A DNA stretch of 64,000 bases from a virus. How positions within the stretch are numbered: the first letter of the stretch is position 1; every line of letters begins with the position of its first letter. Below the pieces are notes generated by a model. The model ran no database searches, had not been told where the DNA came from, and worked only from the letters and a program-made list of their open reading frames with translations. The stretch lies in IMG/VR virus record IMGVR_UViG_3300022921_000006, positions 45,696 to 109,695 of that record; one strand, written 5' to 3'. Below, piece by piece: positions 3,675 to 42,473 of this stretch. A program made the translations under genes and the position numbers.

Positions 3675-3693
3675 TTTATAACTTATTTAGTTG

Positions 3694-3773
3694 TACCTAA
3701 GGTGGGACTCGAACCCACACGCCGAAGCACTAGTTCCTAAGACTAGCGTGTATACCAATTCCACCACTTAGGC
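3694..3773 (-). tRNA. tRNA-Leu (anticodon UAG)
   Basis: Class II cloverleaf on the minus strand. The acceptor is GCCTAAG with CTTAGGT, leaving a G1-U72 wobble. The anticodon loop is CTTAGGA (TAG) in a CTAGT/ACTAG stem, with an extra arm closed by a CTTCGG turn, and the T arm carries GGTTCGAGT. The discriminator is A and no CCA is encoded. It would read CUN codons. Confidence 0.93.
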
Positions 3774-3782
3774 AAATAACCC

Positions 3783-4007: not shown

Positions 4008-4210
4008 CGTTTTGTATTTTGGTTTGTTAAAATGTACCATGGTGGTACGTCTGATTTCTTTTTTGGTAGTTTTCTAAATGTTTGTACTTCGGGGTAATTA
4101 TACCCTTCATGTAGTAATCTAACTGTTTTATCTTTGGTATTAATGTTAAGAACCTCTCCTTGGACCTCCTCGCCAAATAGAAAAAAATTTATAATATCTC
4201 CTACTTTCAT
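4004..4210 (-). CDS. Small hypothetical protein, beta-barrel-like
   Basis: A 68-residue protein starting MKVGDIINFFLFGEEVQGEV. The pattern of a G-D-I start followed by short strands and KTVRLLHEG resembles small SH3-like barrels, but I cannot assign a family. The ATG shares a base with the TAA of the upstream lipoprotein gene (TAATG), and its TGA overlaps the downstream lipoprotein start, so all three are translationally linked. Confidence 0.55.
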   Translation of the reverse strand: MKVGDIINFFLFGEEVQGEVLNINTKDKTVRLLHEGYNYPEVQTFRKLPKKKSDVPPWYILTNQNTKR

Positions 4211-4425
4211 TACCAATCCCTTTGACATTGCTTACGGGGGACCCTAGCATATCTAGTACGAATTCCATTGTTGTAGGAATTACCTCTTCCACTATACCTC
4301 ATATGAGAAAATTTTCCATCATTAGTAAAAACAGCAGATTGGGTTCTGCTATTATAATAATAAGGAGAACAACTTGACAATCCAAGGGCAATAAACAACC
4401 CCAATAAGTAACTTAAATGTTTCAT
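4210..4425 (-). CDS. Small lipoprotein
   Basis: A 71-residue protein with signal MKHLSYLLGLFIALGLSSCS and lipobox GLSS-C. The mature part is short, Tyr/Ser/Arg-rich and basic (YYYNSRTQ, RYARVPRKQ). An AATATTTATT box sits a few bases upstream. It heads a three-gene unit flanked by tRNAs with a second lipoprotein at the end. Envelope role inferred only from the signal. Confidence 0.65.
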   Translation of the reverse strand: MKHLSYLLGLFIALGLSSCSPYYYNSRTQSAVFTNDGKFSHMRYSGRGNSYNNGIRTRYARVPRKQCQRDW

Positions 4426-4429
4426 TTGT

Positions 4430-4439
4430 AATAAATATT
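4430..4439 (-). promoter_or_regulatory. AATATTTATT box (motif A)
   Basis: On the minus strand this reads AATATTTATT, 4 nt before the lipoprotein ATG. The same box recurs before many genes here (10321, 15839, 25331, 38883, 44461, 51914, 59099, 61666). It could be a phage promoter element or an AT-rich translation-initiation enhancer. Confidence 0.4.
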
Positions 4440-4441
4440 TG

Positions 4442-4511
4442 AGGTTAGGGGTGGAATTGCACCACCGTAATAGGATTTGCGATCCTATACCTTCTAATCG
4501 GACACCTAACC
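4442..4511 (-). tRNA. tRNA-Cys (anticodon GCA)
   Basis: A compact 70 nt tRNA. The acceptor GGTTAGG/CCTAACC pairs perfectly. The anticodon arm is TAGGA-TCGCAAA-TCCTA with anticodon GCA, and the T arm is GGTGG/CCACC. The discriminator U agrees with cysteine identity. Oddities: position 33 is C instead of the near-universal U, and the D arm is irregular and short. No encoded CCA. Confidence 0.8.
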
Positions 4512-4519
4512 ATATTGCC

Positions 4520-4740
4520 CCAGCCAGCGCTGAGGACTTGTCCGTCTGGTATCTCGTCGGACCACTGAGATTCTATATTCTGGGTTATAGAAAACCTAGT
4601 CTCCCATATTAGACCAAGGGTTATTATGGGGTGATGTCTGTTCCCCTCTCTGACCCCAAGTATCAGGCCAACTGGGAATCGAACCCAGAGACATCGACTA
4701 CTAGAATACTGCCATATCCGTTCGCACTTTTACCCCTCTC
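4520..4740 (-). ncRNA. Unassigned structured RNA stretch A
   Basis: No gene or canonical tRNA fits this 220 nt gap between tRNA-Cys and tRNA-Thr, yet it is full of exact inverted repeats: 4540-4544 with 4558-4562, 4571-4577 with 4586-4592, 4595-4603 with 4611-4619 (partly), and 4633-4639 with 4689-4695. The last helix encloses a perfect T-arm-like hairpin (4672-4688, CTGGG-TTCGATT-CCCAG on the minus strand). I could not close an acceptor or anticodon arm around it. Strand is inferred from the T-arm motif and the neighbours. It could be a novel ncRNA or a decayed tRNA. Confidence 0.45.
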
Positions 4741-4759
4741 CCCCTGGCAGGGGGGAAAT

Positions 4760-4834
4760 TGGAGCCACTAGTCGGAATTGAACCAACGACCGATGCTTTA
4801 CAAGAGCATTGCTCTACCGCTGAGCTATAGTGGC
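4760..4834 (-). tRNA. tRNA-Thr (anticodon UGU)
   Basis: The acceptor GCCACTA/TAGTGGC pairs perfectly. The D arm is GCTC-AGCGGTAGA-GC, the anticodon loop CTTGTAA (TGT) lies in an ATGCT/AGCAT stem, and the T arm carries GGTTCAATTCC. The discriminator U is followed by an encoded CCA (4760-4762), the only one among the seven tRNAs. Confidence 0.95.
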
Positions 4835-4854
4835 TACATTCGCCTCACACGCTG

Positions 4855-4928
4855 TGATCCCGCTGGGACTCGAACCCAGGACCCTCTCATTAAAAGTGAG
4901 ATGCTCTAACCAACTGAGCTACGGGATC
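4855..4928 (-). tRNA. tRNA-Lys (anticodon UUU)
   Basis: The acceptor GATCCCG/CGGGATC is fully paired with discriminator A. The D arm is GCTC-AGTTGGTTA-GAGC, the anticodon loop CTTTTAA (TTT) sits in a TCTCA/TGAGA stem, and the T arm is CTGGG-TTCGAGT-CCCAG. No encoded CCA. It suits the AAA-rich codon use of this genome. Confidence 0.95.
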
Positions 4929-4929
4929 A

Positions 4930-5270
4930 ATAAATGAAGGAATGGGTAAAGAGTTATTCAGGCTCTTAAGCGCGACAAGCAGGCGGTTGTATTGGTAAAT
5001 CATAATGGCACAAGAGGAGTGTTAAACCCGCATCCCATTAATCATTTCACTTCATGGCTGCTAACCCCAATTGAAGTTCACAATATCGCTTAGTAGAATT
5101 TAGTTCCACTATCACACAACCACACCCTAATAGGCCCACACCGGGCTTTCACCCCCTACAGCGCTTGCTGTAAGTCGAGCTACCTATTAACATGTGTACT
5201 TTATTCCCCTAATCATAGGAACACATTCAGTCATACCCCCCCGTGCGTGATCAGCGCGGTAGGGTTTCCT
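4930..5270 (-). ncRNA. Unassigned structured RNA stretch B
   Basis: A 340 nt gene-free gap between tRNA-Lys and tRNA-Ile with dense exact dyads. A 7-bp helix (5128-5134 with 5183-5189) encloses a perfect 6-bp hairpin (5157-5162/5167-5172) and a GCCC/GGGC hairpin (5134-5137/5143-5146). Outside it are 5192-5197 with 5221-5226 and an ACTTCA/TGAAGT stem at 5049-5077. I find no tRNA, tmRNA tag frame or RNase P core in it. Large ornate RNAs such as ROOL and GOLLD are known next to phage tRNA arrays; I do not recognise their sequence here. Strand inferred from context. Confidence 0.5.
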
Positions 5271-5277
5271 TCATTTG

Positions 5278-5351
5278 TAGGAACGGCAGGAATCGAACCT
5301 GCGACCTTCAAGATATAAGCTTGATGCTCTAACCAATTGAGCTACGTTCCC
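5278..5351 (-). tRNA. tRNA-Ile (anticodon UAU)
   Basis: The acceptor GGGAACG/CGTTCCT leaves a G1-U72 wobble; discriminator A. The anticodon loop is CTTATAT (TAT) in a TCAAG/CTTGA stem and the T arm is GCAGG-TTCGATT-CCTGC. It reads the rare AUA codon directly without needing tRNA-lysidine modification of a CAU anticodon, which suits an AT-rich phage. No encoded CCA. Confidence 0.94.
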
Positions 5352-5425
5352 ATATTGGTGCGTCATTTTATTACGCAGTGACGTCATCAGCGAATGCTAT
5401 TTATTTCAATAAGTAAAGAACCTAG

Positions 5426-5499
5426 TACTCCCTACAGGATTTGAACCTGTGACCCACAGCTTAGAAGGCTGTTGCTCTATCCAGCTGAGCTAAGGGAGC
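5426..5499 (-). tRNA. tRNA-Arg (anticodon UCU)
   Basis: The acceptor GCTCCCT/AGGGAGT again leaves G1-U72; discriminator A. The D arm is GCTC-AGCTGGATA-GAGC, the anticodon loop CTTCTAA (TCT) is in an ACAGC/GCTGT stem and the T arm is ACAGG-TTCAAAT-CCTGT. It reads AGA/AGG codons. No encoded CCA. Confidence 0.95.
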
Positions 5500-5507
5500 A
5501 TATTTTG

Positions 5508-5592
5508 TAGCGCTGGGGGGACTCGAACCCCCACGGACCTACGGTCCAACAGATTTTAAGTCTGTCGTGTCTACCACTTCCACCACAGCGCC
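5508..5592 (-). tRNA. tRNA-Leu (anticodon UAA)
   Basis: Class II tRNA of 85 nt. The acceptor GGCGCTG/CAGCGCT has G1-U72; discriminator A. The anticodon loop CTTAAAA (TAA) lies in an ACAGA/TCTGT stem, the long variable arm is TGGACCGTAGGTCC, and the T arm is GGGGG-TTCGAGT-CCCCC. It reads UUA/UUG. It is the first tRNA in transcription order and starts 11 nt after a micro-ORF stop. Confidence 0.95.
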
Positions 5593-22214: not shown

Positions 22215-23840
22215 TTAATACATTCCAGACATAGCTCCAACCTCATCTTGATTTTCTTGAGGTTTATTAACTACAGTACATTCTGTTAACAAAATAGTAC
22301 CTGCAATTGAAGCTGCATTTTCGAGAGCACAACGCGTAACTTTGGTAGGATCAATAATACCTTTTTTAAGGAAATCATCAAACTTACCAGTTTTAATATT
22401 GTAACCTATATTAGCATTTTCAGCTGATGTAGTACTAAATTCGATGCGGGGAGCATCTTCTATACCAGCATTTATAAGGATTTGTCTAAAGGGTTTACGC
22501 AGAGCTGCATTCATAATAGCACATCCTAGTTTTTGGTCATCGTTAGTAGTTTTACACGTTACGTTTTCACTAGAACGAAGCAATGCTACTCCCCCACCAG
22601 GTACAATACCTTCTTCAATAGCCGCTTTAGTAGCTTGAAGAGCATCATCAACTCTATCTTTACGTTCACGCATTTCAGTTTCAGTGTTCCCACCTACATG
22701 GACAACAGCTACTCCACCTGTAAGTTTAGCTAAACGCTCTTGGAGTTTTTCAGTTTCAAAAGGTGAAGTAGAATTTTCAATTTGAGATTGAAGTTGGGCA
22801 CACAGCCCCTCAATAGCTTCTTCGGTACCTGCACCATCAACAAGAGTAGTTGATTCTTTAGTGACAGTAACTGTACGGCACTCACCTAACCAATTTAGGT
22901 CAAACTTATCAAGTTTCATACCTTTGTCTTTATCAACAACAGTACCACCTGTAAGGGTAGCCATATCATTCATAAGCAAAGTACGACGATCACCAAAATC
23001 AGGGGCTTTAACACAGCATACGTTCAAAATACCTCTCATTTTATTAACAACAAGTGTAGCAAGTGCTTCACCATCAATATCTTCAGCAACAATAAGAAGT
23101 GATTTAGCTTGCTGTGATAGATTTTCAAGGAGGGGGAGCAAATCTTTTACAGTAGTAATTCTACCGTTATAAAAAAGAATAGCTGCATCCTTGAGTACAC
23201 AACTCATATTGTCATTGTTAGTAACAAAATAAGGTGATTTATAGCCCCTATCAAATTGTAGGCCCTCTACTGTTTCAAGGTAGGTTTCACCTGTACGTGA
23301 CTCTTCAATAGTTACTACACCATCACGTCCAACTTTTTCCATAGCAGTAGCAATCAACTCACCTACCTCTTCATCATTATTAGCTGAGATAGTAGCTACC
23401 TGGCGGAGTTGCTTTTCGCTAGAAATATCTTGAGATATCTCCCTAAGATAATCTACATGGGCTTTAACACATACATCAATACCACGTTTAATCTCTACAA
23501 TGTTATGTCCCTTATCACTGTAGCGCATACCTGCATTTACAATTTCACGGGCCAGCAAAGTAGAAGTGGTAGTACCATCACCTGCTTGTTCAGCAGTTTT
23601 AATAGCAGCCTGCTTAACCATTTGAGCACCCGTATTTTCAACAGTATCCTCAAGTTCAATAGCTTTAGCTACAGTTACTCCATCCTTAGTACTTTGGGGA
23701 ACACCTTGTTCATTTTGGATAACAACATTACGACCATTTGGCCCCAAAGTAGTTACGACTGCATCTGCGAGTTGATTAACCCCACTAATTAATTTTTTAC
23801 GGGAGTCGTCTCCGTAGTTTACGATAGTTGTTTTATTCAT
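22215..23840 (-). CDS. groEL: Chaperonin GroEL
   Basis: A 541-residue, apparently intact Hsp60. It has [15 protein letters not shown] and [15 protein letters not shown] in the equatorial domain, [19 protein letters not shown] with the catalytic Asp of GDGTTT, and [10 protein letters not shown] near residue 405. The usual long GGM tail is reduced to GAMSGMY, suggesting a slightly different cavity lining. With the phage GroES it would fold phage proteins such as capsid or fibres in place of host GroEL. Confidence 0.97.
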
Positions 23841-24124
23841 TTTTCAATAATTCCTAAAATTTTATTTTCTTCAATCATGTAGTATTCCTGCCCTTCATAG
23901 TCTACTTTAGTAGGACCCATTTGGGGAAGAAGTGCAATATCCCCTACTTTTATAGTAGTCTCAATAAAGTGTCCCATACCTGAATAGTAACCAGGACCAA
24001 CAGATACTACTTCACCTTTAAGGTTTTTTTCTTTGCCCATATCAGGAACAATAATGCTCCCATGGACACTTTCTTCTTCTTCGATCGGTTTTATAATAAC
24101 CGCGTTAAATAATGCTTTTACCAT
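23837..24124 (-). CDS. groES: Co-chaperonin GroES
   Basis: A 95-residue GroES. NAVIIKPIEEEESVHGSIIVP holds the start of the mobile loop, followed by GEVVSVGPG and a C-terminal KILGIIEK. It is GroES-like rather than the diverged gp31 type. ATGA overlap with groEL gives the normal groES-groEL order. Works as the lid of the chaperonin. Confidence 0.93.
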   Translation of the reverse strand: MVKALFNAVIIKPIEEEESVHGSIIVPDMGKEKNLKGEVVSVGPGYYSGMGHFIETTIKVGDIALLPQMGPTKVDYEGQEYYMIEENKILGIIEK

Positions 24125-32052: not shown

Positions 32053-32535
32053 TTAGAATTTTAGGCCAAACCCAATTCTCAAGTTAGCGGTTCCATCTGT
32101 AGTGTTATAAACTACACGAGGGTCTAAGTACATATTATTAGTAGTAGTAGTAAACAATTTACCAACACCAATATTTAGTCCAAAGTCGGTTGTTAGGTTT
32201 TGAGTACCAATGTACCCAAAAAAACCTTTGTAAAAATAACGAGCATGGACATCTAAATTCAAATCACCTGCTACAGTAGCACCTGTGCTATCAGTAGTGG
32301 TTCCTTGATTTAAAGAAAATCCTGCCATAACGTCATCAGTAAAAGCATACCCTACAGTGGGGGTAAGCATCCACTGAGTCCATGCAGTATTAGAGATGTC
32401 ACCAGTACCTATGTACCAATCTCCTTTAGCGTTATCGTGGTTGTGGGTTTCACAACACGTAGTAGTATCACCTTGGGCGGCAGCAAATGAAGTTGCTCCC
32501 AAGATTAATGTAAGAGTTAAAAATAAATTTTTCAT
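32053..32535 (-). CDS. Probable outer-membrane beta-barrel protein
   Basis: A 160-residue protein with a signal peptide (MKNLFLTLTLILGATSFAAA) and Gly/Thr-rich alternating strands ending in an aromatic residue (RIGFGLKF), as in small outer-membrane barrels. A CC and His cluster (CCETHNH) lies after the signal. I chose the ATG at 32535. Could change the host surface to block other phages, by analogy only. Confidence 0.65.
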   Translation of the reverse strand: MKNLFLTLTLILGATSFAAAQGDTTTCCETHNHDNAKGDWYIGTGDISNTAWTQWMLTPTVGYAFTDDVMAGFSLNQGTTTDSTGATVAGDLNLDVHARYFYKGFFGYIGTQNLTTDFGLNIGVGKLFTTTTNNMYLDPRVVYNTTDGTANLRIGFGLKF

Positions 32536-32578
32536 ATTAAATTTGGTTTTATATATATATGTAACGTGGTTAATTGTA

Positions 32579-33187
32579 TTATGTAATATCGTCTGATTCA
32601 ATTAGGGTATATGTAAATGAATTACCCCAAATGTCTCTAGATTGTCTAACAAGGCCCATAAAATCTTGCCAATCATCATTAGAAGCAATTACTTGGCAAC
32701 CTGCAGACCATTTATCGATTTGAGTAGAAGTTTTACCTTCATATTTAGTTGCTCGGTGAATGTTAATTCCAAAAATACCTTTTTCAATATTTTCTTCATC
32801 TAGATCATAACAAACATCTAAGTTATTATCCCTGTAAACTTGTACAGGTTTTACTTGACGTAGTGCTTCGTATTTACCTTGGTGCAACCCAATTTGGTAA
32901 GTACTTCTATACTGATTAGGCTTTAAAATAGCAACACCTGATTCTTTCATAATATTTTCAACCCAATACTTGCCTGGGTCGGTTGTGCATCCGAAGCAAC
33001 TATAATTCCACATACCATCTACCTTATAGGAGACAGTCATGTAGTCATCAAATTTATTAGTTACTTCGTTTAATGTTTCAGAGTTTCTAACTCCTACTAT
33101 GTTTAAATTGTAATCTCCACTTTCAAACCATTTGTATTCTTTAGACTTGACTGCGGTTTCAATTTGTTCTCTTGTTGGACAATTCAT
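32579..33187 (-). CDS. L,D-transpeptidase/YkuD-like peptidoglycan enzyme, possible endolysin
   Basis: A 202-residue protein whose active-site pattern INIHRATKYEG...WSAGCQV (His144, Ser161, Cys164) matches the HxxxxxSxGC core of YkuD-type L,D-transpeptidases. No signal peptide, so access to the wall would need the holin at 44251-44436. In this phage it is the only visible candidate peptidoglycan enzyme. Whether it cuts or crosslinks is unknown. Confidence 0.65.
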   Translation of the reverse strand: MNCPTREQIETAVKSKEYKWFESGDYNLNIVGVRNSETLNEVTNKFDDYMTVSYKVDGMWNYSCFGCTTDPGKYWVENIMKESGVAILKPNQYRSTYQIGLHQGKYEALRQVKPVQVYRDNNLDVCYDLDEENIEKGIFGINIHRATKYEGKTSTQIDKWSAGCQVIASNDDWQDFMGLVRQSRDIWGNSFTYTLIESDDIT

Positions 33188-33291
33188 TTTTTATCATTTT
33201 TATTCTTAATAATAGATACTATAGACAAAACTACAATTGTAAATGTCATAGCTATAAATAAAGTATCTACTAAAGAAATGTTAAAGTACAT
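33184..33291 (-). CDS. Micro membrane peptide (35 aa)
   Basis: A 35-residue frame MYFNISLVDTLFIAMTFTIV... ending IIKNKNDKK, with one membrane segment and a Lys-rich cytoplasmic tail. It overlaps the end of the phosphate permease gene by 11 nt and the start of the next gene by ATGA, filling an otherwise empty gap. Located just before the wall enzyme, so a lysis-related role is possible but unproven. Confidence 0.6.
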   Translation of the reverse strand: MYFNISLVDTLFIAMTFTIVVLSIVSIIKNKNDKK

Positions 33292-34219
33292 AATGTATTA
33301 ATAATACTATTGCTACTGATACCATTAATCCTACTAATAATTTTAGGAAATCTTTAGCTACAATAGGGAATACTTGCTTAAGATTACCCTTTTTAGTAAG
33401 GTATGTATTCAATGCTAACTCTCTACCACACAACAATCCAACAAATACCCAGGTAGTTGACATAGGAATGTTATTTATTTGTTTAAAATAAAGTAATAGG
33501 AAAGCATACACTAAATCAATTAAAGTAGCTGATCTAACATATTTTGTATTTTGTTTGTCTAAGACAATTTGTTGTATTTTACCTCCTTGTTGATAAAAAA
33601 TCCATCCTAGACCTGCTGTAAAGAAGGTAATTACTCCTATAAGCTCTACAACTGAAAGTTGGCGAGGGAGGAATACAGCAATATTAGCTACATCATGAGA
33701 CAACCAAGTAAACCATAGGAATCCTGTAGTGAACCATTGTCCTATTCTCCAATATTTTTTATTTTCTTCCTTAATATCTTTATTTTCATCAAAGAAATTA
33801 GAGATAATAAACCAAAGGGTATATGCTACTATTGCTGCTAATCCGTAACCCACTACACTTTTAAGTAGCATTTTTTCAAGTACAAAAGTAGAGGCGAATG
33901 CTGAGAGTACAAGGAATGAAGTAGATACAGGAATACCTTTTCTAGTAAGTGCAACTAGTGCTAAAGGTGCTAGTGCATGATACCACTGTACTTCTTGGAA
34001 TGGTATTTTAGTTAATCTTCCATATGATATATCTCCATCATAGGCATACCACCCATAAACCATAGTACCTATCATTACTGCAGAAGCTGCAGCCCACATA
34101 ACGTACCATTTAAATTTTTCTCTGTTAGAGGCAATCCAAGTGCCTAGTGTTTGAACGCTGTCGTTAGCGATAACTGAATAACCGGCAAGGCAAAACCCTA
34201 CCATTGCTAATAAACTCAT
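33281..34219 (-). CDS. PiT-family inorganic phosphate permease
   Basis: A 312-residue multi-pass membrane protein with the duplicated PiT signature: VIANDSVQTLGTW near residue 17 and WLSHDVANIAVF near residue 175. Each repeat is followed by a PVSTSF/PMSTTW loop. It would import phosphate with Na+ or H+ during infection, when phosphate limits DNA synthesis. Shorter than bacterial PiT proteins (about 420-500). No regulatory pho box was recognised. Confidence 0.88.
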   Translation of the reverse strand: MSLLAMVGFCLAGYSVIANDSVQTLGTWIASNREKFKWYVMWAAASAVMIGTMVYGWYAYDGDISYGRLTKIPFQEVQWYHALAPLALVALTRKGIPVSTSFLVLSAFASTFVLEKMLLKSVVGYGLAAIVAYTLWFIISNFFDENKDIKEENKKYWRIGQWFTTGFLWFTWLSHDVANIAVFLPRQLSVVELIGVITFFTAGLGWIFYQQGGKIQQIVLDKQNTKYVRSATLIDLVYAFLLLYFKQINNIPMSTTWVFVGLLCGRELALNTYLTKKGNLKQVFPIVAKDFLKLLVGLMVSVAIVLLIHYVL

Positions 34220-34228
34220 TTTGTTGTG

Positions 34229-34672
34229 TTAAATTTTAATTGAAATTCTAAATCGTATTGTGTTTGAAGTATCCCATCCTACTCTATAAACGTAGTTTTT
34301 ATATGGAATATCTGTTGCTATTGCAAAATTATATATTTCGTCGAACCAAAATTCTTGTTGTACCCAAAGTTTAAATTTTTCAAACTTATAAATTAAACGT
34401 GGTTCCCAAGTAGGTTCGTTTTTTTCTCTTTTGTAGTGAAGTGGGACACTAAATACTACTTTGTCTGTTACTTTAAAATTGTGTCTATAAGTAAATCGAT
34501 TTTCACCTAAATCAGTTTTATGTCTTAATTCAAGTCCACCTTTATTGTGTATTTTATGACTTATAGTAAGGTATGATTTACCGTTTGTTCTTAACTCATA
34601 TCCTATTTTTTGGGAATGGCAAACGCTTGCTATTATAAGAACTAAATTAAATAATATAAATAAATGTTTCAT
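34229..34672 (-). CDS. Secreted, probable small outer-membrane barrel protein
   Basis: A 147-residue protein with a signal peptide (MKHLFILFNLVLIIASVCHS) and many amphipathic strands (LTISHKIHNKGGLELRHK, IRFRISIKI). It resembles DUF2490-type or other small beta-barrels, without a firm match. Lies between the phosphate permease and thyX. Confidence 0.6.
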   Translation of the reverse strand: MKHLFILFNLVLIIASVCHSQKIGYELRTNGKSYLTISHKIHNKGGLELRHKTDLGENRFTYRHNFKVTDKVVFSVPLHYKREKNEPTWEPRLIYKFEKFKLWVQQEFWFDEIYNFAIATDIPYKNYVYRVGWDTSNTIRFRISIKI

Positions 34673-34674
34673 GC

Positions 34675-35334
34675 TTATACGTATCCTAAAGCGTTCGAGA
34701 TCACTGGGAATTTGTTTATAAAGTGTTTTTTAATCTCTTTAGCTACTAATTGGATTTCTTTTTGAGCATGTTCATCATCTCTTAGTTCAAGAAAATGAAT
34801 CCAACTACGAATACTACCTGTCATATGAATTTTAGTAGTTGTAGCAAGTGGAAGAACCATACGTGCTTGTTCACGAGCTACTCCTGCTTCTAAAAGCTCA
34901 TTATATAAAGCATGAGTTCTTTTTAAATGAGCATCTATAACTTCAGATGCTTTACCTTTAAAATAACTTTGATTGTTATTAAAAATTTCAGGATTAATTA
35001 TTTCTGTTGAACTTTGTCTATTATCTTCACATTGTGCTCTTAGTTCAATAGGTTCAAACATACCTTCAAGCTTGTTAACATCTTGGTATCGTTGGCTAAA
35101 CTCTTGAAATGAAAATGAACGGTGTCTGATTAATTGTATACCTATTGCTTTTGATGTTTCGATTTCAAAAGTAACATGTCCATGTTCAAATGGAGACCAA
35201 TGTTTATGTTTAATTAGGTAATTAAGAAGACCTTCAGGTTTGCTTTTTTTGTCTTTACGTGAGCTAGATACACGTGCTACTTCTACTATATGCTCTTCAG
35301 CATTTGGTGTAACATTTAATAGCGTAACTTTCAT
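34675..35334 (-). CDS. thyX: Flavin-dependent thymidylate synthase
   Basis: A 219-residue ThyX with the signature RHRSFSFQEFSQRY (about residues 75-88). Makes dTMP from dUMP with FAD and methylene-THF. ThyX is common in phages and cooperates with the phage NrdAB. Ends FPVISNALGYV. A gap of about 50 nt separates it from the next gene upstream. Confidence 0.96.
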   Translation of the reverse strand: MKVTLLNVTPNAEEHIVEVARVSSSRKDKKSKPEGLLNYLIKHKHWSPFEHGHVTFEIETSKAIGIQLIRHRSFSFQEFSQRYQDVNKLEGMFEPIELRAQCEDNRQSSTEIINPEIFNNNQSYFKGKASEVIDAHLKRTHALYNELLEAGVAREQARMVLPLATTTKIHMTGSIRSWIHFLELRDDEHAQKEIQLVAKEIKKHFINKFPVISNALGYV

Positions 35335-35385
35335 TTGGTTAATAAATTTGATATAACTTTACGAACAATTTTTGAAAAAACCAAG

Positions 35386-36861
35386 TTAACGTAAAATTAT
35401 AACGTGTCCTCTTAATTCTTTTACTTCAGCTGTCCCTACTTTCCTTGCTTGGAACCACCACAAATACATTTCATTTTGTACATAATAATCACCCCCTCTA
35501 AAATTACCATTCCAAACTAAGTTATTTACATCATAAGATTCCCATACTATATTTCCCCATCTACTTATTACTTGAACCTTAACATCAGTCCAACATTCAG
35601 GATCTAGTACTATCTCCCACCCATCATTATACCCATCATTATCTGGGGTGAAGGCGTTAGGAATGTAAACATTACATTCTTTATTCCTAATTTCACTACA
35701 AGGTAAACCTGTTTCACAATCTATTTCTACAAACTCATATATAGTAACTGTATCACTTTGTATTATATAAATTGTATCTACAGAATAGATGTATTCTGTT
35801 TCAATTACAGTATCAGTTACAAAAATAAATTCTGTCTCAGTTACAGTAATTGTATCTGTTATAAATATAGTTTCAGTAACTGTGTCCGGGGGTAGTTCTA
35901 TATAGAGTGTATCAATTTCAGTTACAATAATTGTATCGGGAGGTAGCTCTATATAAAGTGTATCAATTTCAGTTACAGTAATAATAAGAGTATCTATTTC
36001 ATATATAGTATCAGGGGGTAGTTCTATGTAAACAGTATCACACTCAACTTCTTCAGGACAATCAAAAGCATTAAAATAAAAATCCCAATAACCGTCTGAG
36101 TTTTGGTATTCATTACATAGTTCTTCACCATTAGGAGTATCACAATAAATACAAAACCCACCTGGTTCAAACCATTGGTTGTTGTAATTACAAGCTATTG
36201 GGTTATTACATTCATCTAATATTAATGGTTCTTCGGGTTCCTCGCAAGGTCCTACGATTATCCAATTGTCTAAAAAGTTAGTATCTTCATACAACCCACT
36301 CCCATAACTGGTCCCATCACCATTTGCCCCTACTTCTGCCCAACCCCCATCTTCAGCATACATTGTAGGCCCATAGCTAATCTGCCATATTACTGCTTGA
36401 ATGCTATAACCTTCATCATACCAATATTGTAAATTATTGGCAAGTTGAGAAGTTGTATTGATATTTGTTGATTGATAAACATTATCCAAAGGAAAAGTTA
36501 AAGTATCCCCCGTATAGTAAGGGGGTTGTAATTCAGGACCATAGTTATTAGTCCAATTACCAAATATTTCAGTTGTAGTAGCTGAGTATAACCATCCAGG
36601 ATGATTACTGTTATCAGGGATAGATATTCCACTAGGGAAATCCCAACCAATATTCATAGCATTACAGTTACTATCTATTGCTTGAAACCCAAATTGAATT
36701 TCAGATATACCATCAGGCCCACCTGTCCCCCCACAGTTATTTGTATTGTTAAAAGCTACAGTAATTGTAGCATCATTAACATTAAAATCAAGTATTTCAA
36801 GATCACATTGTCCTAATATACTAAATGGTAAAAAAAGTAAAGCTAATAATAATTTCTTCAT
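35386..36861 (-). CDS. Secreted CHU_C/gliding-type T9SS protein with Thr-rich repeats
   Basis: A 491-residue protein with a signal peptide (MKKLLLALLFLPFSILGQ) and a beta-rich N-terminal domain. Residues about 275-375 repeat an IDTLYIELPPDT / TVTETEFI pattern, a stalk of alternating Thr/Val/Ile. The last 95 residues (IPNAFTPDNDGYNDGWEI, VISRWGNIVWE) form a gliding-motility-type C-terminal domain, a T9SS type B sorting signal. Expected to be exported by host T9SS and displayed. Shares one base with the protease stop. Confidence 0.82.
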   Translation of the reverse strand: MKKLLLALLFLPFSILGQCDLEILDFNVNDATITVAFNNTNNCGGTGGPDGISEIQFGFQAIDSNCNAMNIGWDFPSGISIPDNSNHPGWLYSATTTEIFGNWTNNYGPELQPPYYTGDTLTFPLDNVYQSTNINTTSQLANNLQYWYDEGYSIQAVIWQISYGPTMYAEDGGWAEVGANGDGTSYGSGLYEDTNFLDNWIIVGPCEEPEEPLILDECNNPIACNYNNQWFEPGGFCIYCDTPNGEELCNEYQNSDGYWDFYFNAFDCPEEVECDTVYIELPPDTIYEIDTLIITVTEIDTLYIELPPDTIIVTEIDTLYIELPPDTVTETIFITDTITVTETEFIFVTDTVIETEYIYSVDTIYIIQSDTVTIYEFVEIDCETGLPCSEIRNKECNVYIPNAFTPDNDGYNDGWEIVLDPECWTDVKVQVISRWGNIVWESYDVNNLVWNGNFRGGDYYVQNEMYLWWFQARKVGTAEVKELRGHVIILR

Positions 36862-38858
36862 TAATGTTGTTGGTGATAGATTTTTTTACTAATCACAAAA
36901 CCATTTGTCCATTCTTGAACTATAAAATAGATTCCTGTATCTAGATAATCATTATATTGTACTTCTTGTCCTTGCAAATTATATAGTTTTTGAGTAACAA
37001 CTTCTTCTCCTGCCTCTTGTACTAATCGTCTAAAACTATCTAATGGGGGAGACATTAAACCTGTTCCACATTCAGTATCAAAATTAGCAATAGCATCTAA
37101 TATATCATCTACCCCTACAACCCCATCTTGGTTGATATCAAATTGGTTACAAGGTTCTACTTCAAGTCCATAATATTGTATAATTTGTAGTATATCACTT
37201 ACCCATACAAATCCATTACCATCTACATCCCATGGACAATCGTTAGGGGGACAAAAAGAGGGTATTACATAAAAGGGTAAAGGTTCACCATCAGCCCACC
37301 CTCCTTGGATTGAGTTTAATGTATCATTCCCACTTATAATTGAGATAAGCCCATACTCATCAGGATTATCTACACAATAATAATGTAACCCATTACCAAA
37401 AATATCTTCTAACACTAAAACATAGTTACCTTCAGGTAAACAAAAACTATAAGTTTCAGATTCACAAGAATAATCAGCATTAGTATATGTCTGGCTTCCT
37501 ACCCCACTAATAGCATCTCCTATAGGATTGTTTAAACTATCAGCCTCGTATAAAACCCAATGGAATCCGTAGGGAAGGGCGTCAAATTGTATATTAATAT
37601 CAATAAGAGAACCTTCATAATTGTCAAGTTGAACTGACTGAGTGTTATTATCTGCGTAGACATCTCCTAAGGCATCTACATTAATTTCAATATCTACTAG
37701 ACCATAACCTACTTCAAAATTAGGTATAGTTATAGTTTCACTTTCACCAAATCCTAAATTACCTGTCCAAATCATAAATAACTCTTCACCATTAATTGTA
37801 TAATTAATAGTGGTTTCAGTTAAAGTATCACCATAACTAGTTAATATAAATTCTATATCTTGTGTAGGGTCACAACCAAGATTTGGTATAGTAACACCAC
37901 TTACACCAGCATCTACACCATCAATAGCACCACAAGCTAGTGTGTTATTTACTACCCCTGGGCGAGCTGTTTCTAGTCTGCTAAGCATTCTTAAAGCTTG
38001 ACCCTGGGTAAAACTATCCATGCATTGGTCATTAGAATAATCCATGAAATTCTCCACCAATGTTTCAGGACATGATAAAGGTCCACATCCCGCAGAACCT
38101 GTAGTTGGTGGGGTATCGCATACAGCATCACCTTGGCTGACGCAATTACCAGTAGGATTACACGTAGAAGTATTGTGGAATGTATGGAATAACCCACAAT
38201 AATGTCCTAGTTCGTGTACTAGTGTTCTATTTAAAGCATAATTATTTTGATACCCAGTTATTCCAAAGTAATTTGTACCTACAAATACCCCATAATTTGA
38301 AGGGGCTAAATAAGCAAATCCTAAAGGACTAGTAAAAGGTGCAACAAAAATATTACAATAATTACTACGATCATACCCAATTAAATTAGAAACATTTACA
38401 TTATTTAAGTAAAAATCAGAAATGTCACCGAAACCTAAATCATCCCAATTATAATATCTAATACCTTCAATTGGAGCACCACTAGTAGATAAATTTGCAA
38501 TACAAAAATCTATTTCTGTATTTGCTGTGGGGTCGTCACTAAACTCACCTGCAAAGTTTTGGTTGGCATTATCAATAGCTTCTTGAACATATTCAATAGG
38601 TAAATGGTTATCCACTCCATAGGGCTCACCAAGGTGAATAATATGGACAATAACCGGTACAGTTATAGGAAGATCAGGCATAGATGAAGCCCTTTTAGCT
38701 TCTTCTGCTTCCTTAGCTATTTTTTCAAGTTTTAAATAGCTTCGTTTAAATTTAGGATCTTGTAGCTGTTGCTCAAAAAGAGCATCTGTGCCACATCTTT
38801 CTTGCCCATAAAGGGGCAATGTCATAAGTAGTAAAAATAGGAAAATCAGTTTTTTCAT
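36861..38858 (-). CDS. Secreted M43-type zinc metalloprotease with dockerin-like and T9SS domains
   Basis: A 665-residue exported protease. Signal MKKLIFLFLLLMTLPLYG; catalytic HELGHYCGLFH (residues 215-225) fits HExxHxxGxxH of pappalysin-type M43 proteases, and VENFMDYSND is the Met-turn. Near residues 540-600 are two calcium-loop repeats (DVDGNGFVWVSDIL, DINQDGVVGVDDIL), as in type I dockerins. It ends in a T9SS type A tail (GIYFIVQEWTNGFVISKK). I used the ATG at 38858, where the signal begins. A motif A box is upstream. Confidence 0.88.
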   Translation of the reverse strand: MKKLIFLFLLLMTLPLYGQERCGTDALFEQQLQDPKFKRSYLKLEKIAKEAEEAKRASSMPDLPITVPVIVHIIHLGEPYGVDNHLPIEYVQEAIDNANQNFAGEFSDDPTANTEIDFCIANLSTSGAPIEGIRYYNWDDLGFGDISDFYLNNVNVSNLIGYDRSNYCNIFVAPFTSPLGFAYLAPSNYGVFVGTNYFGITGYQNNYALNRTLVHELGHYCGLFHTFHNTSTCNPTGNCVSQGDAVCDTPPTTGSAGCGPLSCPETLVENFMDYSNDQCMDSFTQGQALRMLSRLETARPGVVNNTLACGAIDGVDAGVSGVTIPNLGCDPTQDIEFILTSYGDTLTETTINYTINGEELFMIWTGNLGFGESETITIPNFEVGYGLVDIEINVDALGDVYADNNTQSVQLDNYEGSLIDINIQFDALPYGFHWVLYEADSLNNPIGDAISGVGSQTYTNADYSCESETYSFCLPEGNYVLVLEDIFGNGLHYYCVDNPDEYGLISIISGNDTLNSIQGGWADGEPLPFYVIPSFCPPNDCPWDVDGNGFVWVSDILQIIQYYGLEVEPCNQFDINQDGVVGVDDILDAIANFDTECGTGLMSPPLDSFRRLVQEAGEEVVTQKLYNLQGQEVQYNDYLDTGIYFIVQEWTNGFVISKKIYHQQH

Positions 38859-38882
38859 AGCGGTTTGGTTGTAACTTTCGGT

Positions 38883-38892
38883 TATAAATATT
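38883..38892 (-). promoter_or_regulatory. AATATTTATA box (motif A) after a terminator
   Basis: Minus strand AATATTTATA lies one base past the U tract of the 38893-38914 terminator and 24 nt before the protease ATG. This position, right after a terminator, is the best evidence that motif A is a promoter. Confidence 0.55.
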
Positions 38893-38914
38893 AAAAAAGG
38901 CACCCGAAGGTGCC
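38893..38914 (-). terminator. Intrinsic terminator, UUCG loop
   Basis: Minus strand GGCACC-TTCG-GGTGCC followed by TTTTTT: a textbook rho-independent terminator ending the queE transcript. The other strand also has a short T run, so it may work both ways. Confidence 0.9.
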
Positions 38915-38939
38915 CTTTTTGGCATAAATTTGTAAGTCG

Positions 38940-39713
38940 TTAAACTCCACGTTCTGTATTATAAGCTATAATATGGTCTCGACCAGTCATATTATATCCA
39001 TGCTCAGCGACCATTTCAAATACTTTAGGGTACATTTCAACTAGTGTTTCTCTTGTATCCCCTGCAGGCATAACAAATGTTTTATTTTTAGGAATATTCA
39101 TTTTAACTCTAAATTCCTCAATTTCAGCTAAACACTCATCGGTACCATCCCAAACTGGTTTATAATGATAATCACTATGAAAATCAATCATTTTCTGAAT
39201 GTTCTCATAATGGAGTCTAAACTTGTTATGCTGAGTGACAAACCTTTCATCAACCACTTTACCACCGGGAGTAGTAATACCCACACGAGGGACAGAATTA
39301 GAAAACTTAGGGCTAAGGGATACGAGACCAAGTGGAAAATCCGTTTCCACGAAGTGAGACCCTTCGGTTTCGATTGTAATGAGAATTCCTCTTTCGTTGG
39401 CAAAATGGGTAAGTTCATTTACAAGGGCAGCATGCATTGTTGGTGAACCCCCTGTTAACATCATCTCTTTTACTTGAGGATTCTCATCATAAATATTGAT
39501 AATGTCATTAAATGTAAACGTACCTTTTTCAGGGTGGATTGAAGTATACCACGAATCACACCACCCACCTTCACCAAACCAACAGCGGTGGGTACATCCT
39601 GTAGTTCGAACGGCAATAGTGGGGCGCCCGAAACGGGAGCCCTCACTTTGCACGCATCGATATACCTCTAATACAGGTAATACTTTATCGTAATCTTCTA
39701 TCCTTTTAAGCAT
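38940..39713 (-). CDS. queE: 7-carboxy-7-deazaguanine synthase QueE
   Basis: A 257-residue radical SAM enzyme. VQSEGSRFGRPTIAVRTTG leads to the cluster cysteines Cys40, Cys44 and Cys52 in a Cx3Cx7C spacing, where common QueE proteins have CxxxCxxC or Cx14CxxC. MMLTGGSPTM and LVSLSPKFSN are typical QueE motifs. It makes 7-carboxy-7-deazaguanine from the QueD product. It ends at a strong terminator, closing the modification operon. Confidence 0.9.
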   Translation of the reverse strand: MLKRIEDYDKVLPVLEVYRCVQSEGSRFGRPTIAVRTTGCTHRCWFGEGGWCDSWYTSIHPEKGTFTFNDIINIYDENPQVKEMMLTGGSPTMHAALVNELTHFANERGILITIETEGSHFVETDFPLGLVSLSPKFSNSVPRVGITTPGGKVVDERFVTQHNKFRLHYENIQKMIDFHSDYHYKPVWDGTDECLAEIEEFRVKMNIPKNKTFVMPAGDTRETLVEMYPKVFEMVAEHGYNMTGRDHIIAYNTERGV

Positions 39714-39714
39714 A

Positions 39715-40335
39715 TTATCTTTCGATCTTTAGAAACTTTTCACCATTTTTAATATAAATGGAGTTAAAGGGAATTTGATCGTAGCTATCAATTTCTTGAC
39801 CCATAATATTATAGTAAATATTATTTTGTGGGGTTTTATTTTCTAGCTCTAGTATTGAATTAGTACTACTAGGTACAAGAACAGCATCAATAACATGAAC
39901 AACACCATTATCTGTGACAAGGTCAGCAACTGTGACCATGGCATATTCAACTGTGACTCCTGTGCTATCTACACCAATAGTTAAAGTACCATTGTTTAGT
40001 GCTGTTACTTCCATACCATCATACAGATCAGTACTTAGAGCTGTGGTTCCCACAACATGATATGTAAGAATATCTGCCAAGTTTTGTAACTCTAATAGAT
40101 CAGTGGGTTCGAGTTGGAGTGAGGTTGCTAAAGTAATAAATGCACTATCTGTAGGTGCAAATACTGTAAATGTTCCTGTTGTGTCGCTTAAAGCTTCAAC
40201 TAATCCTGCTTCTACTACTGCAGCTTCTAACAAGGTGTGGTCTTCGCTATTTACAATAACATCAACAACAGTTGTTTGTGCAGAACTAACTAGGGTGGTT
40301 AAGGCCAACCCAAAGGCCATAATTGTTTTTTTCAT
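39715..40335 (-). CDS. Secreted fasciclin-domain protein with T9SS-like tail
   Basis: A 206-residue protein: signal MKKTIMAFGLALTTLVSSAQ, one FAS1 domain (FTVFAPTDSAFITL, ILTYHVVG, NGVVHVIDAVLVP), and a C-terminal segment IYYNIMGQEIDSYDQIPFNS typical of T9SS type A tails. FAS1 domains mediate adhesion. It sits inside the queuosine-type operon between queE and queD, an odd place for an adhesin. Confidence 0.85.
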   Translation of the reverse strand: MKKTIMAFGLALTTLVSSAQTTVVDVIVNSEDHTLLEAAVVEAGLVEALSDTTGTFTVFAPTDSAFITLATSLQLEPTDLLELQNLADILTYHVVGTTALSTDLYDGMEVTALNNGTLTIGVDSTGVTVEYAMVTVADLVTDNGVVHVIDAVLVPSSTNSILELENKTPQNNIYYNIMGQEIDSYDQIPFNSIYIKNGEKFLKIER

Positions 40336-40363
40336 AATTTTGATTTTTGTTATTAACTTTTAT

Positions 40364-40822
40364 TTATTCAGCATAGATTGCTGTGTTTTTTCCGTGTTCT
40401 CTAAATTCTACTTGCATAACCTTAACACGTCCATCTGTTTCTTCTAATACAAACTTGTTAAGTTTCTCATAAATATACTGAGCAAAACGTTCTGCTCCAG
40501 TTGCTGGTATTTCTCTAAGTTGAATTACACCTGCTTCATCCATTCTACGAAATGATTCTAGGAATGGATCGTCTTCAGCTACAAGCATAGTATGATCAAA
40601 CATATGGTCCATCCAAGCTTTAGGATTCATACCATCAATTTCGGTTTTAGCACGTTTCATACCCCCAAAATCCCAAACCCAATTACGTTCGTCTAGTTCC
40701 CCTTTAAACCATACTTTAAACGAGATTCCATAACCATGGAGAAATCTACAATGTGTGCCTTCTGCTTTAGCTTGACGAAACACACAGCTAAACCCATCAA
40801 ATACTTTAGTTGATATAAACAT
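40364..40822 (-). CDS. queD: 6-carboxytetrahydropterin synthase QueD
   Basis: A 152-residue member of the PTPS/QueD family. GTHCRFLHGYGISFKVWFKG supplies Cys and His ligands, MDHMFDHTML the second metal/catalytic block, and IPATGAERFAQYIYEKL the Glu of the pterin pocket. Converts dihydroneopterin triphosphate to 6-carboxytetrahydropterin. Shares one base with the queC stop. Confidence 0.9.
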   Translation of the reverse strand: MFISTKVFDGFSCVFRQAKAEGTHCRFLHGYGISFKVWFKGELDERNWVWDFGGMKRAKTEIDGMNPKAWMDHMFDHTMLVAEDDPFLESFRRMDEAGVIQLREIPATGAERFAQYIYEKLNKFVLEETDGRVKVMQVEFREHGKNTAIYAE

Positions 40823-41658
40823 TAGGCTTCAGCTAAAACTTGTTCAACATGTTGTTTTACAGTATTCCATGTAACGGGTCCTCTCTCATCAGCATATTGT
40901 ACCGGATCCTCTGTCCCCAACTTAATAAACGCTTCGACACGTTCCACCGAAGAAGCAGATTTATAGTCGCTGTACCACTTATCACCAAAACTAAGGGGCT
41001 TATAAGAAGTATTTGTAAGGGAATAAACTCGGTTGAAATCAAGTCCCAATTCATCGCAGCATCTTCTTCCATCAAGCAAAATATCATACTTATCCCCACT
41101 GAGGTAAGGGGTATGATAGGTAACGCGCCCAGCGTTCCAATTACCTTCGGTGAAAGCTGCATAGTCAGCGTCCCTGAACTCTTGTCTACAATCGGGGTAT
41201 ATAGCATGATCACCTGCGTGAATACCCATCGCAATATGTACTTCAGTATCTTTTTCATTTGCTATTGATAGTGCTACCGCTTGAATTATTGATGAGAAAA
41301 TTTTATTTCTATTAGGAACAACTGTTTCCTTCATGTTTTCCTGTTCATAGTGTCCTTCAGGCACCTCATCTCCACCTTCTACAAGGGCACTATTAAGCAT
41401 AGGAGCCAAACCATCAAGTTTAATTACTCCATATTTAATTTCTGGGTATTTTTCCCTAAATTCACCTAGTGGGGATTGTTCAAGTCTAACTGTATTAAGG
41501 TGGCTTACTAATTCACGAGCACGGGAGAGTTCAACTTTATGTTTTTGTCCATAATCAAAACTCAAAGCTGTAACCTCGTAGCCTTCTGCTAATAGTCTTA
41601 GCAAAACTGTGGAGCTGTCCATTCCTCCACTTAAAGATAAAACTGCTTGTTTATTCAT
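40822..41658 (-). CDS. queC: QueC-like 7-cyano-7-deazaguanine synthase lacking zinc cysteines
   Basis: A 278-residue ATP-dependent enzyme of the QueC family. LSLSGGMDSSTVLL is the PP-loop; YPDCRQEFRDA and VTYHTPYLSGDK are conserved. The zinc site that QueC normally has near its end (SCY...CGxCxxC) is replaced by TSYKPLSF and YSDYKSASS (residues 217-237), so all four Cys are missing. It may use a different fold-stabiliser or make a different product (amide instead of nitrile). ATGA overlap with dpdA. Confidence 0.85.
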   Translation of the reverse strand: MNKQAVLSLSGGMDSSTVLLRLLAEGYEVTALSFDYGQKHKVELSRARELVSHLNTVRLEQSPLGEFREKYPEIKYGVIKLDGLAPMLNSALVEGGDEVPEGHYEQENMKETVVPNRNKIFSSIIQAVALSIANEKDTEVHIAMGIHAGDHAIYPDCRQEFRDADYAAFTEGNWNAGRVTYHTPYLSGDKYDILLDGRRCCDELGLDFNRVYSLTNTSYKPLSFGDKWYSDYKSASSVERVEAFIKLGTEDPVQYADERGPVTWNTVKQHVEQVLAEA

Positions 41659-42473
41659 GTTATATTATTAATTAATTTAAAGTATGTAGTATTATGTCGT
41701 ATAGCTTCATATATGGCTTCATCAAATTTAGCATCAATTACTTCATCTATTTTAGTTTTAGGTTTAGAATCTAGACCCCAATTATTATAAAGAGTACCAT
41801 CAAATGCCGCCATTACAGGATTTGAAGTGTCTATGCTTACAATTTGTTTTACATCCTTATAATATAAAAACTCTTGTGGGAGGGAACAACCTAAAAGATG
41901 AATTTTATCGCTTTTTCCAATAAGACCCATATTAATCATTTTGCTAATAACTAATTGACGTCCCAATGCTTTCCCAATATCCTTATTAGGATGTGGGAAT
42001 ATATCGTTATAATAGCTAGCTCCATATGAAAATGCAATTTTGGTGTAACCCAACCACTTATATGTTTGATAACACTTTACTACGTCATCAAATGATTTAC
42101 CTTGTACTACTGCAACTTTCTTTACTCCTTCAGGTAATTCAATAAAGCTCCATTCTTTAGCTTGGCGCATTGATTGGGTGGCGTCTTCCCAAGCATCTGG
42201 TACTATAAATTCATCGGGTTTTATTTCCTCAATAATAGAAATCATTCTACCTTTTGAGTAAGGTGCTCCAAGTTCATGGAGAGAATTATCCATTATAATG
42301 TGACGCTTACCTGCATGGTTGCTTCTTTGGAAGAATTCTTTGTACTCCTCAAATTGATCATACAAATGAGGGAGTAAATAGTCATAGTCGTTAAATTCTA
42401 GACTAGCTTGTAGGTAAGTAAAAGGTATCTCATGTGATACTATTGCTCCCTTTGCTGATGCTTCTATACTCAT
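41655..42473 (-). CDS. dpdA: DpdA-like DNA 7-deazaguanine transglycosylase
   Basis: A 272-residue TGT-related TIM-barrel protein. HIIMDNSLHELG (Asp62) and IVSIDTSNPVMAAFDG (Asp215) sit where TGT enzymes have their two catalytic aspartates. The zinc site (CxCxxC...H) of tRNA TGT is absent, as in phage DpdA proteins that exchange guanine in DNA for preQ0 or derivatives. Its placement next to queC/queD/queE strongly supports a DNA substrate. The exact DpdA subgroup is not determined. Confidence 0.78.
   Translation of the reverse strand: MSIEASAKGAIVSHEIPFTYLQASLEFNDYDYLLPHLYDQFEEYKEFFQRSNHAGKRHIIMDNSLHELGAPYSKGRMISIIEEIKPDEFIVPDAWEDATQSMRQAKEWSFIELPEGVKKVAVVQGKSFDDVVKCYQTYKWLGYTKIAFSYGASYYNDIFPHPNKDIGKALGRQLVISKMINMGLIGKSDKIHLLGCSLPQEFLYYKDVKQIVSIDTSNPVMAAFDGTLYNNWGLDSKPKTKIDEVIDAKFDEAIYEAIRHNTTYFKLINNIT

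Follow-up and report, generated by a model that had tools for sequence, protein, structure and literature searches.

Why would a phage encode proteins that look built for the secretion machinery of its host? The question is raised by three minus-strand genes in a stretch of 64,000 nucleotides (the window), which covers bases 45,696-109,695 of the 109,695-base IMG/VR virus record IMGVR_UViG_3300022921_000006. An earlier note, made from the letters alone, had correctly placed there a gene for a CHU_C-type protein with a Thr-rich stalk (35386..36861; 491 residues; hereafter the stalk protein), one for an M43 metalloprotease (pappalysin/mirolysin-like; 36861..38858; 665 residues counted from ATG, the open reading frame (ORF) as listed starting at an upstream GTG, 38903) and one for a fasciclin-domain protein (39715..40335; 206 residues). 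It had proposed that each carries a signal peptide and a C-terminal domain (CTD) for the type IX secretion system (T9SS) of the host. The reading favoured here, with a probability of about 0.55, is that the phage proteins exploit the export route of a Bacteroidota host to re-dress the infected cell, most likely hindering further phages.

The evidence that carries this reading comes above all from the stalk protein. Family alignments, profile matches and structure models divide it into a signal peptide, an N-terminal domain (N-domain), a Cys-rich module, a stalk of DTxYIELPPDT-type repeats and a type B (CHU_C) CTD, the last encoded at 35386..35682 (minus strand; about residues 394-491). Residues 400-490 score 39.3 bits with TIGR04131 (cut-off 35) and 44.5 bits with PF13585 (CHU_C; cut-off 27), and Thr makes up 14% of the 174 stalk residues counted. 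A model of the CTD (residues 394-491) aligns to the CTD of NucA (8glk_D) over 75 of 75 residues, with a Z score of 8.4 and a root-mean-square deviation of 2.4, and to other solved T9SS CTDs with Z scores of 8.2 (PorZ), 7.9 (PorU), 7.7 (RemA), 7.3 (FspA) and 6.9 (RgpB). In the AlphaFold model the CTD is folded and the stalk is disordered, with a predicted local distance difference test (pLDDT) below 50. Across relatives the stalk is variable in length while the tip, that is, the N-domain, is conserved: in 17 relatives the DCxTGxxC motif follows the last N-domain Cys after 60 to 315 residues, the upper end being that of locus L035, which has extra sequence between these two points. Sequence, fold and conservation together make the stalk protein a convincing and well-supported candidate for T9SS type B cargo, and its delivery by the T9SS to remodel the cell surface is considered likely.

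Export of all three proteins is also suggested by their N-termini. Signal peptides were called by a pattern scan of 162 ORFs (a signal peptide followed by Gln, or a lipoprotein-like one), which flagged nine, six with Gln at position +1 and three lipoprotein-like; shuffled N-termini gave a mean of 0.68 and a maximum of 3 in 50 rounds. The stalk, M43 and fasciclin proteins all belong to the six Q-type cases, which bears out the signal peptides of the earlier note. Predicted cleavage before Gln in all three, which for the stalk protein the scan places at MKKLLLALLFLPFSILG|Q, agrees with the Q-rule, a feature of Bacteroidetes (PMC5837995, PMC10653852). One of the six is a 61-residue holin-like protein; the other five, the convincing ones of the 109.7-kb record, namely a 160-residue protein, a 147-residue protein and the three under study, are all encoded within window positions 32053-40335.

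The bodies of the two companion proteins are what the earlier note took them for, with 49.9 bits for PF05572 in the M43 protein (cut-off 23) and 96.5 bits for PF02469 in the fasciclin protein (cut-off 22). Among the best matches of the M43 protein in the PDB by sequence are mirolysin (6r7u; residues 22-298, E 5.9e-17), itself a T9SS-secreted KLIKK protease, and ulilysin. Its zinc-binding motif, HELGHYCGLFH (38184..38216, minus strand; residues 215-225, read from the translation), is an intact HExxHxxGxxH whose H, E and G residues do not vary among three phage M43 proteins, and an ENFMDYS stretch is retained downstream. Further on come a dockerin/EF-hand-like pair (37086..37229, minus strand; residues 544-591), which with 19.2 bits for PF00404 stays below the cut-off of 22.9, and a short type A-like tail formed by the last 62 residues (36864..37049, minus strand). 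When an alignment of this tail from three phages was compared by hhalign with 28 flavobacterial type A CTDs, picked by a YxNP-type motif from 30 loci, the match reached a probability of 81.7 (P 1.1e-5). In a control with the C-termini of 19 phage gene families the M43 tail ranked first, with a score of 28.5 against 13.2 for the next. Profile-profile comparison thus supports a type A-like tail, which the curated models do not file as type A cargo, and a part for the protease in T9SS-delivered surface remodelling seems moderately probable.

For the fasciclin protein the argument is indirect. Its short tail (YYNIMGQEI...NSIYIKNGEKFLKIER; 39718..39858, minus strand), defined by an alignment of six phage tails, resembles the M43 tail (P 5.4e-5). 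A hidden Markov model (HMM) of the six tails, searched against 150 bacterial genomes from the order of genome G030, had matches at E<=0.01 in six. One of them (L330, E 0.0066) was dropped, as it is not a C-terminal tail; in the five accepted, the tail ends secreted-looking proteins of 170-212 residues. Three of these (L327, L328 and L329) are related to one another. With the last 45 residues removed, blastp (E<=0.01) finds no similarity between any two of this group, L325, L326 and the phage fasciclin protein, whereas with the tails left on all match one another. Because the same tail ends mutually dissimilar secreted bodies, it is, as far as sequence can tell, a portable C-terminal element. 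In Porphyromonas gingivalis, CTD function needs a beta3-beta4 loop with Gly and a C-terminal motif with Lys, and the last 22 residues of HBP35 are enough as a targeting signal (PMC11285876); both motifs are readable by eye in the phage tails, as YNLQGQEV and YNIMGQEI for the first and KKI and KFLKI for the second. Fasciclin homologues in the viral contigs L048 and L053 score above the TIGR04183 cut-off (47.8 and 52.2 bits in one search, 43.7 and 46.9 bits in another). The presence of the shared tail on unrelated secreted flavobacterial proteins indirectly supports a similar function for the phage tail, which is not fileable as type A, and the chances that the fasciclin protein takes part in T9SS-delivered surface remodelling appear evenly balanced.

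A host with the necessary machinery is plausible. The eight best bacterial matches of the M43 protein come from Flavobacteriales metagenome-assembled genomes (33-37% identity). TIGR04131 has 20-28 matches in each of seven of these genomes and in one Lacinutrix genome, and TIGR04183 has 23-106 matches in each of five bacterial genomes. Because the M43 relatives belong to Flavobacteriales and such genomes carry T9SS domain matches, a flavobacterial host is likely. The statement that the T9SS exists only in Bacteroidota was slightly too narrow, the system being assigned to the Fibrobacteres-Chlorobi-Bacteroidetes superphylum (PMC7468147).

The genes have a history of their own within phage genomes. 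The M43-stalk gene order recurs between phage genes in L035 (M43 46% and stalk 50% identical), L040 (65% and 52%), L034, L036 and L038. In L035 and L040 the neighbours are far more alike, with 93-95% for QueE, 92-93% for the 147-residue protein and 94-95% for the PHO4-like protein, against 46-65% for M43 and stalk. The fasciclin gene is found in L040, L036 and L038 and not in L034 or L035, and in L050-L052 the QueE gene is followed directly by a gene for a 170-residue protein, without the M43 and stalk genes. As these genes are present or missing among syntenic relatives, they are, on comparison of these contigs, gain-and-loss cassettes. Ratios of nonsynonymous to synonymous substitution (dN/dS) were 0.04-0.16 for the stalk gene in 9 of 10 podophage pairs (the tenth undefined), 0.18-0.26 when the M43 and stalk genes were compared with those of the sister contigs L034 and L040, 0.07 and 0.24 for fasciclin, and 0.36 for the stalk C-terminus against the close relative L029, with 0.07 for QueE and 0.05 for NrdA as references; several of the dS values exceed 1 and are saturated. 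The ratios of the stalk and M43 genes count among the points in favour of the proposed re-dressing.

The N-domain (36232..36813, minus strand; 194 residues, starting just before the predicted cleavage site) is the conserved and phage-enriched part of the stalk protein. A total of 79 distinct viral loci encode it, including two copies of the window phage, and HMM searches of bacterial genomes found it in 1 of 399 from the order of G030 and in 0 of 395 from its phylum. A pattern scan of bacterial contigs, a weak one with two peptide patterns only, confirmed none of 21 candidate stretches. The sole bacterial match (genome G071; L324:7988-9431) is partial, lies at a contig end and runs into lipase-like sequence, and it was counted as a bacterial copy because its neighbouring genes look chromosomal. 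In terms of these counts the N-domain is a phage-enriched family, common to the window phage and to Elemovirus-related podophages. Phage-wide tblastn searches gave CHU_C-like matches to the stalk protein in no more than two phages, both giant and uncultured, one short faecal record for the M43 protein and nothing for the fasciclin protein. The structure model of the N-domain has a pLDDT of 77.9 and a predicted template modelling score of 0.81. The window copy has no Pfam match at E<=1, and DUF6404 is matched by 2 of 43 family members (best E 0.0075). A PDB sequence search with the whole family gave nothing better than E 0.078, Foldseek with the model gave no PDB match at E<=0.001, and the best further structural match, a lamin immunoglobulin-like domain (Z 6.4), falls within the range of chance. 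BFVD contains two relatives: A0A7S9STS8 of Virus NIOZ-UU157 (406 residues, E 1.5e-7, 23% identity), matched by the model, and A0A516LPX6 (60% identity, E 5.5e-20), an unnamed entry.

T9SS domains are not confined to this phage. In a sample of 32 records chosen for having relatives, and thus not random, TIGR04131 was above cut-off in 16, three of them the window phage and its near-identical copies, and in none of 14 control genomes. TIGR04183 was above cut-off in 7 of the 32 records; among the controls 1 of 14 was above and 2 more were below cut-off. The cultured Flavobacterium phage immuto is among the TIGR04183-positive records, on account of a type A domain (46.5 bits) at the C-terminus of its cohesin protein gp015. 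In the immuto segment gp013-gp015 (L200:10527-13422), a C-type lectin protein (57.3 bits) is encoded near this cohesin protein, beside nrdA. A dockerin-like stretch can be read by eye in gp013, the dockerin-like pair of the window M43 protein being sub-threshold, and a phage-made cohesin-dockerin pair of gp013 and gp015 is conceivable. TIGR04183 matches also occur in frames of about 900 residues in G014, G018 and G019, and an 844-residue type A cargo protein (34.3 bits; L163:13399-15933) is encoded near a podophage stalk gene, on the opposite strand.

A 270-kb record (G006) adds a possible anchor to the cargo. It encodes a 998-residue type B protein related to residues 88-321 and 387-491 of the window stalk protein (E 9e-22) and to the stalk protein of L035 (37% over 464 columns, E 3e-66). 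A PorP/SprF homologue is encoded about 7 kb from this gene (L331:1438-2412; G006:C1 about 147458-148432), with 155 bits for PF11751 (cut-off 22.3). It recurs in four contigs including this one, three copies being identical and one 82% identical; because the flanks of the 82% variant are mostly 99-100% identical in the compared genes, it is the PorP segment itself that varies. Type B cargo need not have a PorP/SprF partner encoded in its own genome.

These observations would fit the following course of infection. After Sec export, cleavage by signal peptidase I would expose the N-terminal Gln for which the pattern is present, and the host T9SS would carry the stalk protein across the outer membrane by means of its type B domain; the M43 and fasciclin proteins would probably follow by their short type A-like tails. 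PorP-like barrels retain type B cargo, SprF for example holding SprB (PMC9143113), and by analogy the stalk protein may be held at the surface by a PorP/SprF-type barrel, supplied by the host or, in the 270-kb phage, made by the phage. The conserved N-domain would then sit at the tip of a flexible stalk, and meanwhile the protease would trim proteins exposed on the cell. The likeliest outcome would be that other phages and returning progeny adsorb less well to the infected cell, either because its surface proteins are masked or clipped or because anchors that usually serve SprB and similar adhesins are occupied. Gliding mutants of Flavobacterium johnsoniae resist many phages; a literature search for gliding mutants resistant to phages yielded no paper. 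The phage-selected Rough form of Flavobacterium columnare lost gliding (PMC4094633). Interference with adsorption is favoured as the main role, given delivery, because type B anchoring and this loss of gliding fit a part for T9SS-displayed adhesins in adsorption; as a statement about function it stays tentative, a little short of even odds. A bolder version would be that phage-specific, T9SS-displayed stalk proteins, present in several unrelated lineages of Bacteroidota phages, form a general coat-exchange device that takes over type B anchors, with at least one 270-kb phage lineage bringing its own PorP/SprF, so that the adhesin coat of the host is replaced and the cell closed to competitors; this generalisation is doubtful.

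Several results weigh against the proposed re-dressing of the cell. Of 22 phage records tested for PorP/SprF (PF11751) a single one carries it, and the window phage is not that one. The N-domain is strongly conserved, contrary to expectation for a protein in a receptor arms race. The CTD fold of the stalk protein is a generic immunoglobulin-like one, most Z scores are below 8 and a beta-glucuronidase domain scores higher (Z 8.7), so that the structural matches support the assignment without proving it. The stalk protein has no match in the elemo records or in MW202828, the Manatee Spring podovirus, and TIGR04131 is absent in W02 and W03; because these closest GenBank podophages are without the stalk gene, it is regarded as accessory. 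The comparison of the C-termini with TIGR04131 and TIGR04183, which the earlier note had itself proposed, upheld its T9SS-like CTD for the stalk protein and failed to do so for the other two: neither the M43 nor the fasciclin C-terminus matches TIGR04183 or PF18962 at E<=1, and TIGR04183 has no match in the whole 109,695-base record. The fasciclin tail, compared with the 28 type A CTDs, was not significant (P 0.37; control run 0.21). What stands of the proposed delivery by the host T9SS is the stalk protein, on sequence, fold and conservation, with profile-profile comparison speaking for the M43 protein and indirect evidence for the fasciclin protein.

As candidate roles the earlier note had offered superinfection exclusion, aggregation or nutrient release. 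Among the alternatives to the favoured reading, an extracellular auxiliary metabolism survives best, in which the protease, the adhesion domains and nearby transport genes would help the infected cell to feed through attachment to particles, degradation of proteins and uptake of phosphate or other nutrients. A PHO4-like phosphate transporter with relatives in 147 viral stretches lies in the region, the close relative L029 has a TonB-dependent receptor at the corresponding place, and immuto encodes its C-type lectin and type A cohesin proteins beside nrdA. However, a conserved stalked protein next to a podophage terminase is left unexplained, and lytic infection gives secreted enzymes little time to pay back, which makes this explanation unlikely. 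Adhesion of cell to cell or of cell to particle, by which the stalk and fasciclin proteins would aggregate infected cells or make them stick and release progeny beside new hosts, could draw on the adhesion-type character of the fasciclin, cohesin and lectin domains and on the combination of a variable stalk with a conserved tip. The N-domain, however, lacks a known binding partner and could not be matched with confidence to any structure of known function, and the accompanying protease is not an obvious fit; this is a distinctly unlikely account.

The stalk protein might instead decorate the capsid or tail, its CHU_C-like domain being a mere immunoglobulin-like module, as the generic fold of the CTD would allow. 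Podophages whose terminase belongs to phrog_6681 and whose portal belongs to phrog_6547 indeed have the stalk gene among virion genes, a placement that may leave a virion role open. Among seven Elemovirus-related podophage loci checked, a 4-base overlap of the stalk gene with the terminase gene is seen in three (L162, L182 and L006) and is missing from the remaining four. A classification of these podophages as crAss-like was rejected, the terminase of L031 being closest to that of Manatee Spring podovirus MW202828 (47.7%) and then to Elemovirus (40.3%). Yet a signal peptide with Gln at +1 should remove the stalk protein from cytoplasmic assembly, its CTD is above two T9SS-specific cut-offs, the window gene sits among genes of nucleotide metabolism, and the two companion proteins, the protease and the fasciclin protein, share the stalk protein's type of signal peptide, so that a virion component is improbable. 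A wrong join of bacterial cargo genes to a phage contig, for which the typically bacterial nature of T9SS cargo, the bacterial relatives of the M43 protein and the partial N-domain at the end of one bacterial contig could be cited, is regarded as refuted by the diverged syntenic relatives between phage genes (L035, L040, L034, L036 and L038), besides the 79 viral loci of the N-domain, and has a negligible chance.

The surroundings of the three genes are those of a phage, as the earlier note had held. PHROGs gave matches for 5 of 10 record proteins tested (a baseplate wedge protein, a DNA polymerase, a UvsX/RecA-like recombinase, a QueC-like protein and one of unknown function) and none for the remaining five. 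ThyX is also encoded in the window, and the best cultured match of its ribonucleotide reductase (NrdB) is that of immuto, 73.5% identical. Immuto has the order SSB, RecA, exonuclease, helicase, NrdB, NrdA, and the window is similar by size and position; for a possible relationship to Immutovirus, the comparison covers the identity of this single gene and the order of replication genes. A queE-like gene (phrog_2076; 38940-39713), absent from the earlier account, lies between the fasciclin and M43 genes. The M43 stop codon and the stalk-gene ATG share one base (TAATG), and just upstream of M43 a consensus scan placed a terminator-like hairpin (38893..38920, minus strand; 12 pairs, then T-rich). 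As this hairpin stands between the queE-like and M43 genes, it suggests that the M43 and stalk genes may form a unit of their own; the scan found 7 terminator-like sites against a shuffle mean of 4.0, which is not proof.

The two other exported-type proteins of the region, both with a Q-type signal peptide, on the minus strand and small outer-membrane-protein-like by eye, are the 147-residue protein (34229..34672; no Pfam family above cut-off) and the 160-residue protein (32053..32535; no Pfam match at E<=0.01). The PHO4-like transporter (33281-34219) scores 37.2 bits with PF01384 (cut-off 33.7); of 158 viral stretches that matched its pattern 147 encode a relative, and the best 80 of the 147 were kept. 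In L029 the TonB-dependent receptor gene (1832-4630; 932 residues; PF13715, PF07715 and PF00593 above cut-off) encodes a Q-type signal peptide and is flanked by genes 93-100% identical to those of the window phage. Genes like those for QueE, QueD, QueC and DpdA (38940-42473; QueD and DpdA by eye) suggest deazaguanine DNA modification, GroEL- and GroES-like genes are seen by eye at 22215-24124 (groEL and a chaperonin 10 are annotated in the record of the Manatee Spring podovirus too), six tRNA genes lie on the minus strand at 3693-5592, and PADLOC found no match among seven proteins of the region.

If the proposed re-dressing is correct, phages would use the Bacteroidota secretion machine to alter the outer surface of the cell during infection, beyond rewiring its interior. 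Superinfection exclusion or extracellular viral enzymes would thereby have one more means of delivery, and the T9SS domains that turn up in phage genomes would be accounted for. It would also define a testable family, the stalk protein together with the PorP/SprF of the 270-kb phage, in many environmental phages, with immuto and its host Flavobacterium sp. LMO8 as a cultured system whose type A cargo is recognised by a curated model.

How do these proteins compare with known systems? Phage-encoded T9SS cargo is already known (PMC7468147, PMC6949934) and, as the earlier note rightly said, rarely described, the reports being few; in the open-licence PMC literature no paper was found on a type B phage stalk family or on a phage PorP/SprF. 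Proteins exported according to the Q-rule have been reported for Porphyromonas phages (PMC10367356). A parallel is Cryophage, likewise a phage, in whose genome three genes bear T9SS sorting domains; its authors proposed that the host system is hijacked and raised superinfection exclusion as a possibility (PMC7468147, Nat Commun 2020). There the domains are of type A, on an endoglucanase, a GH39 protein and a PA14 protein, whereas here a type B stalk protein is joined by short-tailed M43 and fasciclin proteins, and the available part of that account describes no stalk family or PorP/SprF (PMC7468147). In crAss-like cluster 2, too, T9SS sorting-domain proteins lie near the head gene section of Bacteroidetes phages (PMC6949934, Viruses 2019); that cargo is linked to BACON domains (PMC6949934), and the podophages described here are nearest to Elemovirus and the Manatee Spring podovirus by terminase. 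The BFVD relative A0A7S9STS8 is entered as a 'gliding motility-associated C-terminal domain-containing protein', a name that is that of the type B domain, and is known here as a database entry. With the M43 pappalysins of solved structure, mirolysin and ulilysin, the phage protease shares the pro-segment and the HExxHxxGxxH metalloprotease domain; unlike them, it continues into beta-rich regions, the dockerin-like pair and the short tail. Finally, the pairs SprB-SprF and PG1035-PorP, in which a type B CTD protein is held at the surface by a PorP-like barrel (PMC9143113), consist of host proteins; of such a pair the window phage has the cargo only, and the 270-kb phage encodes both kinds.

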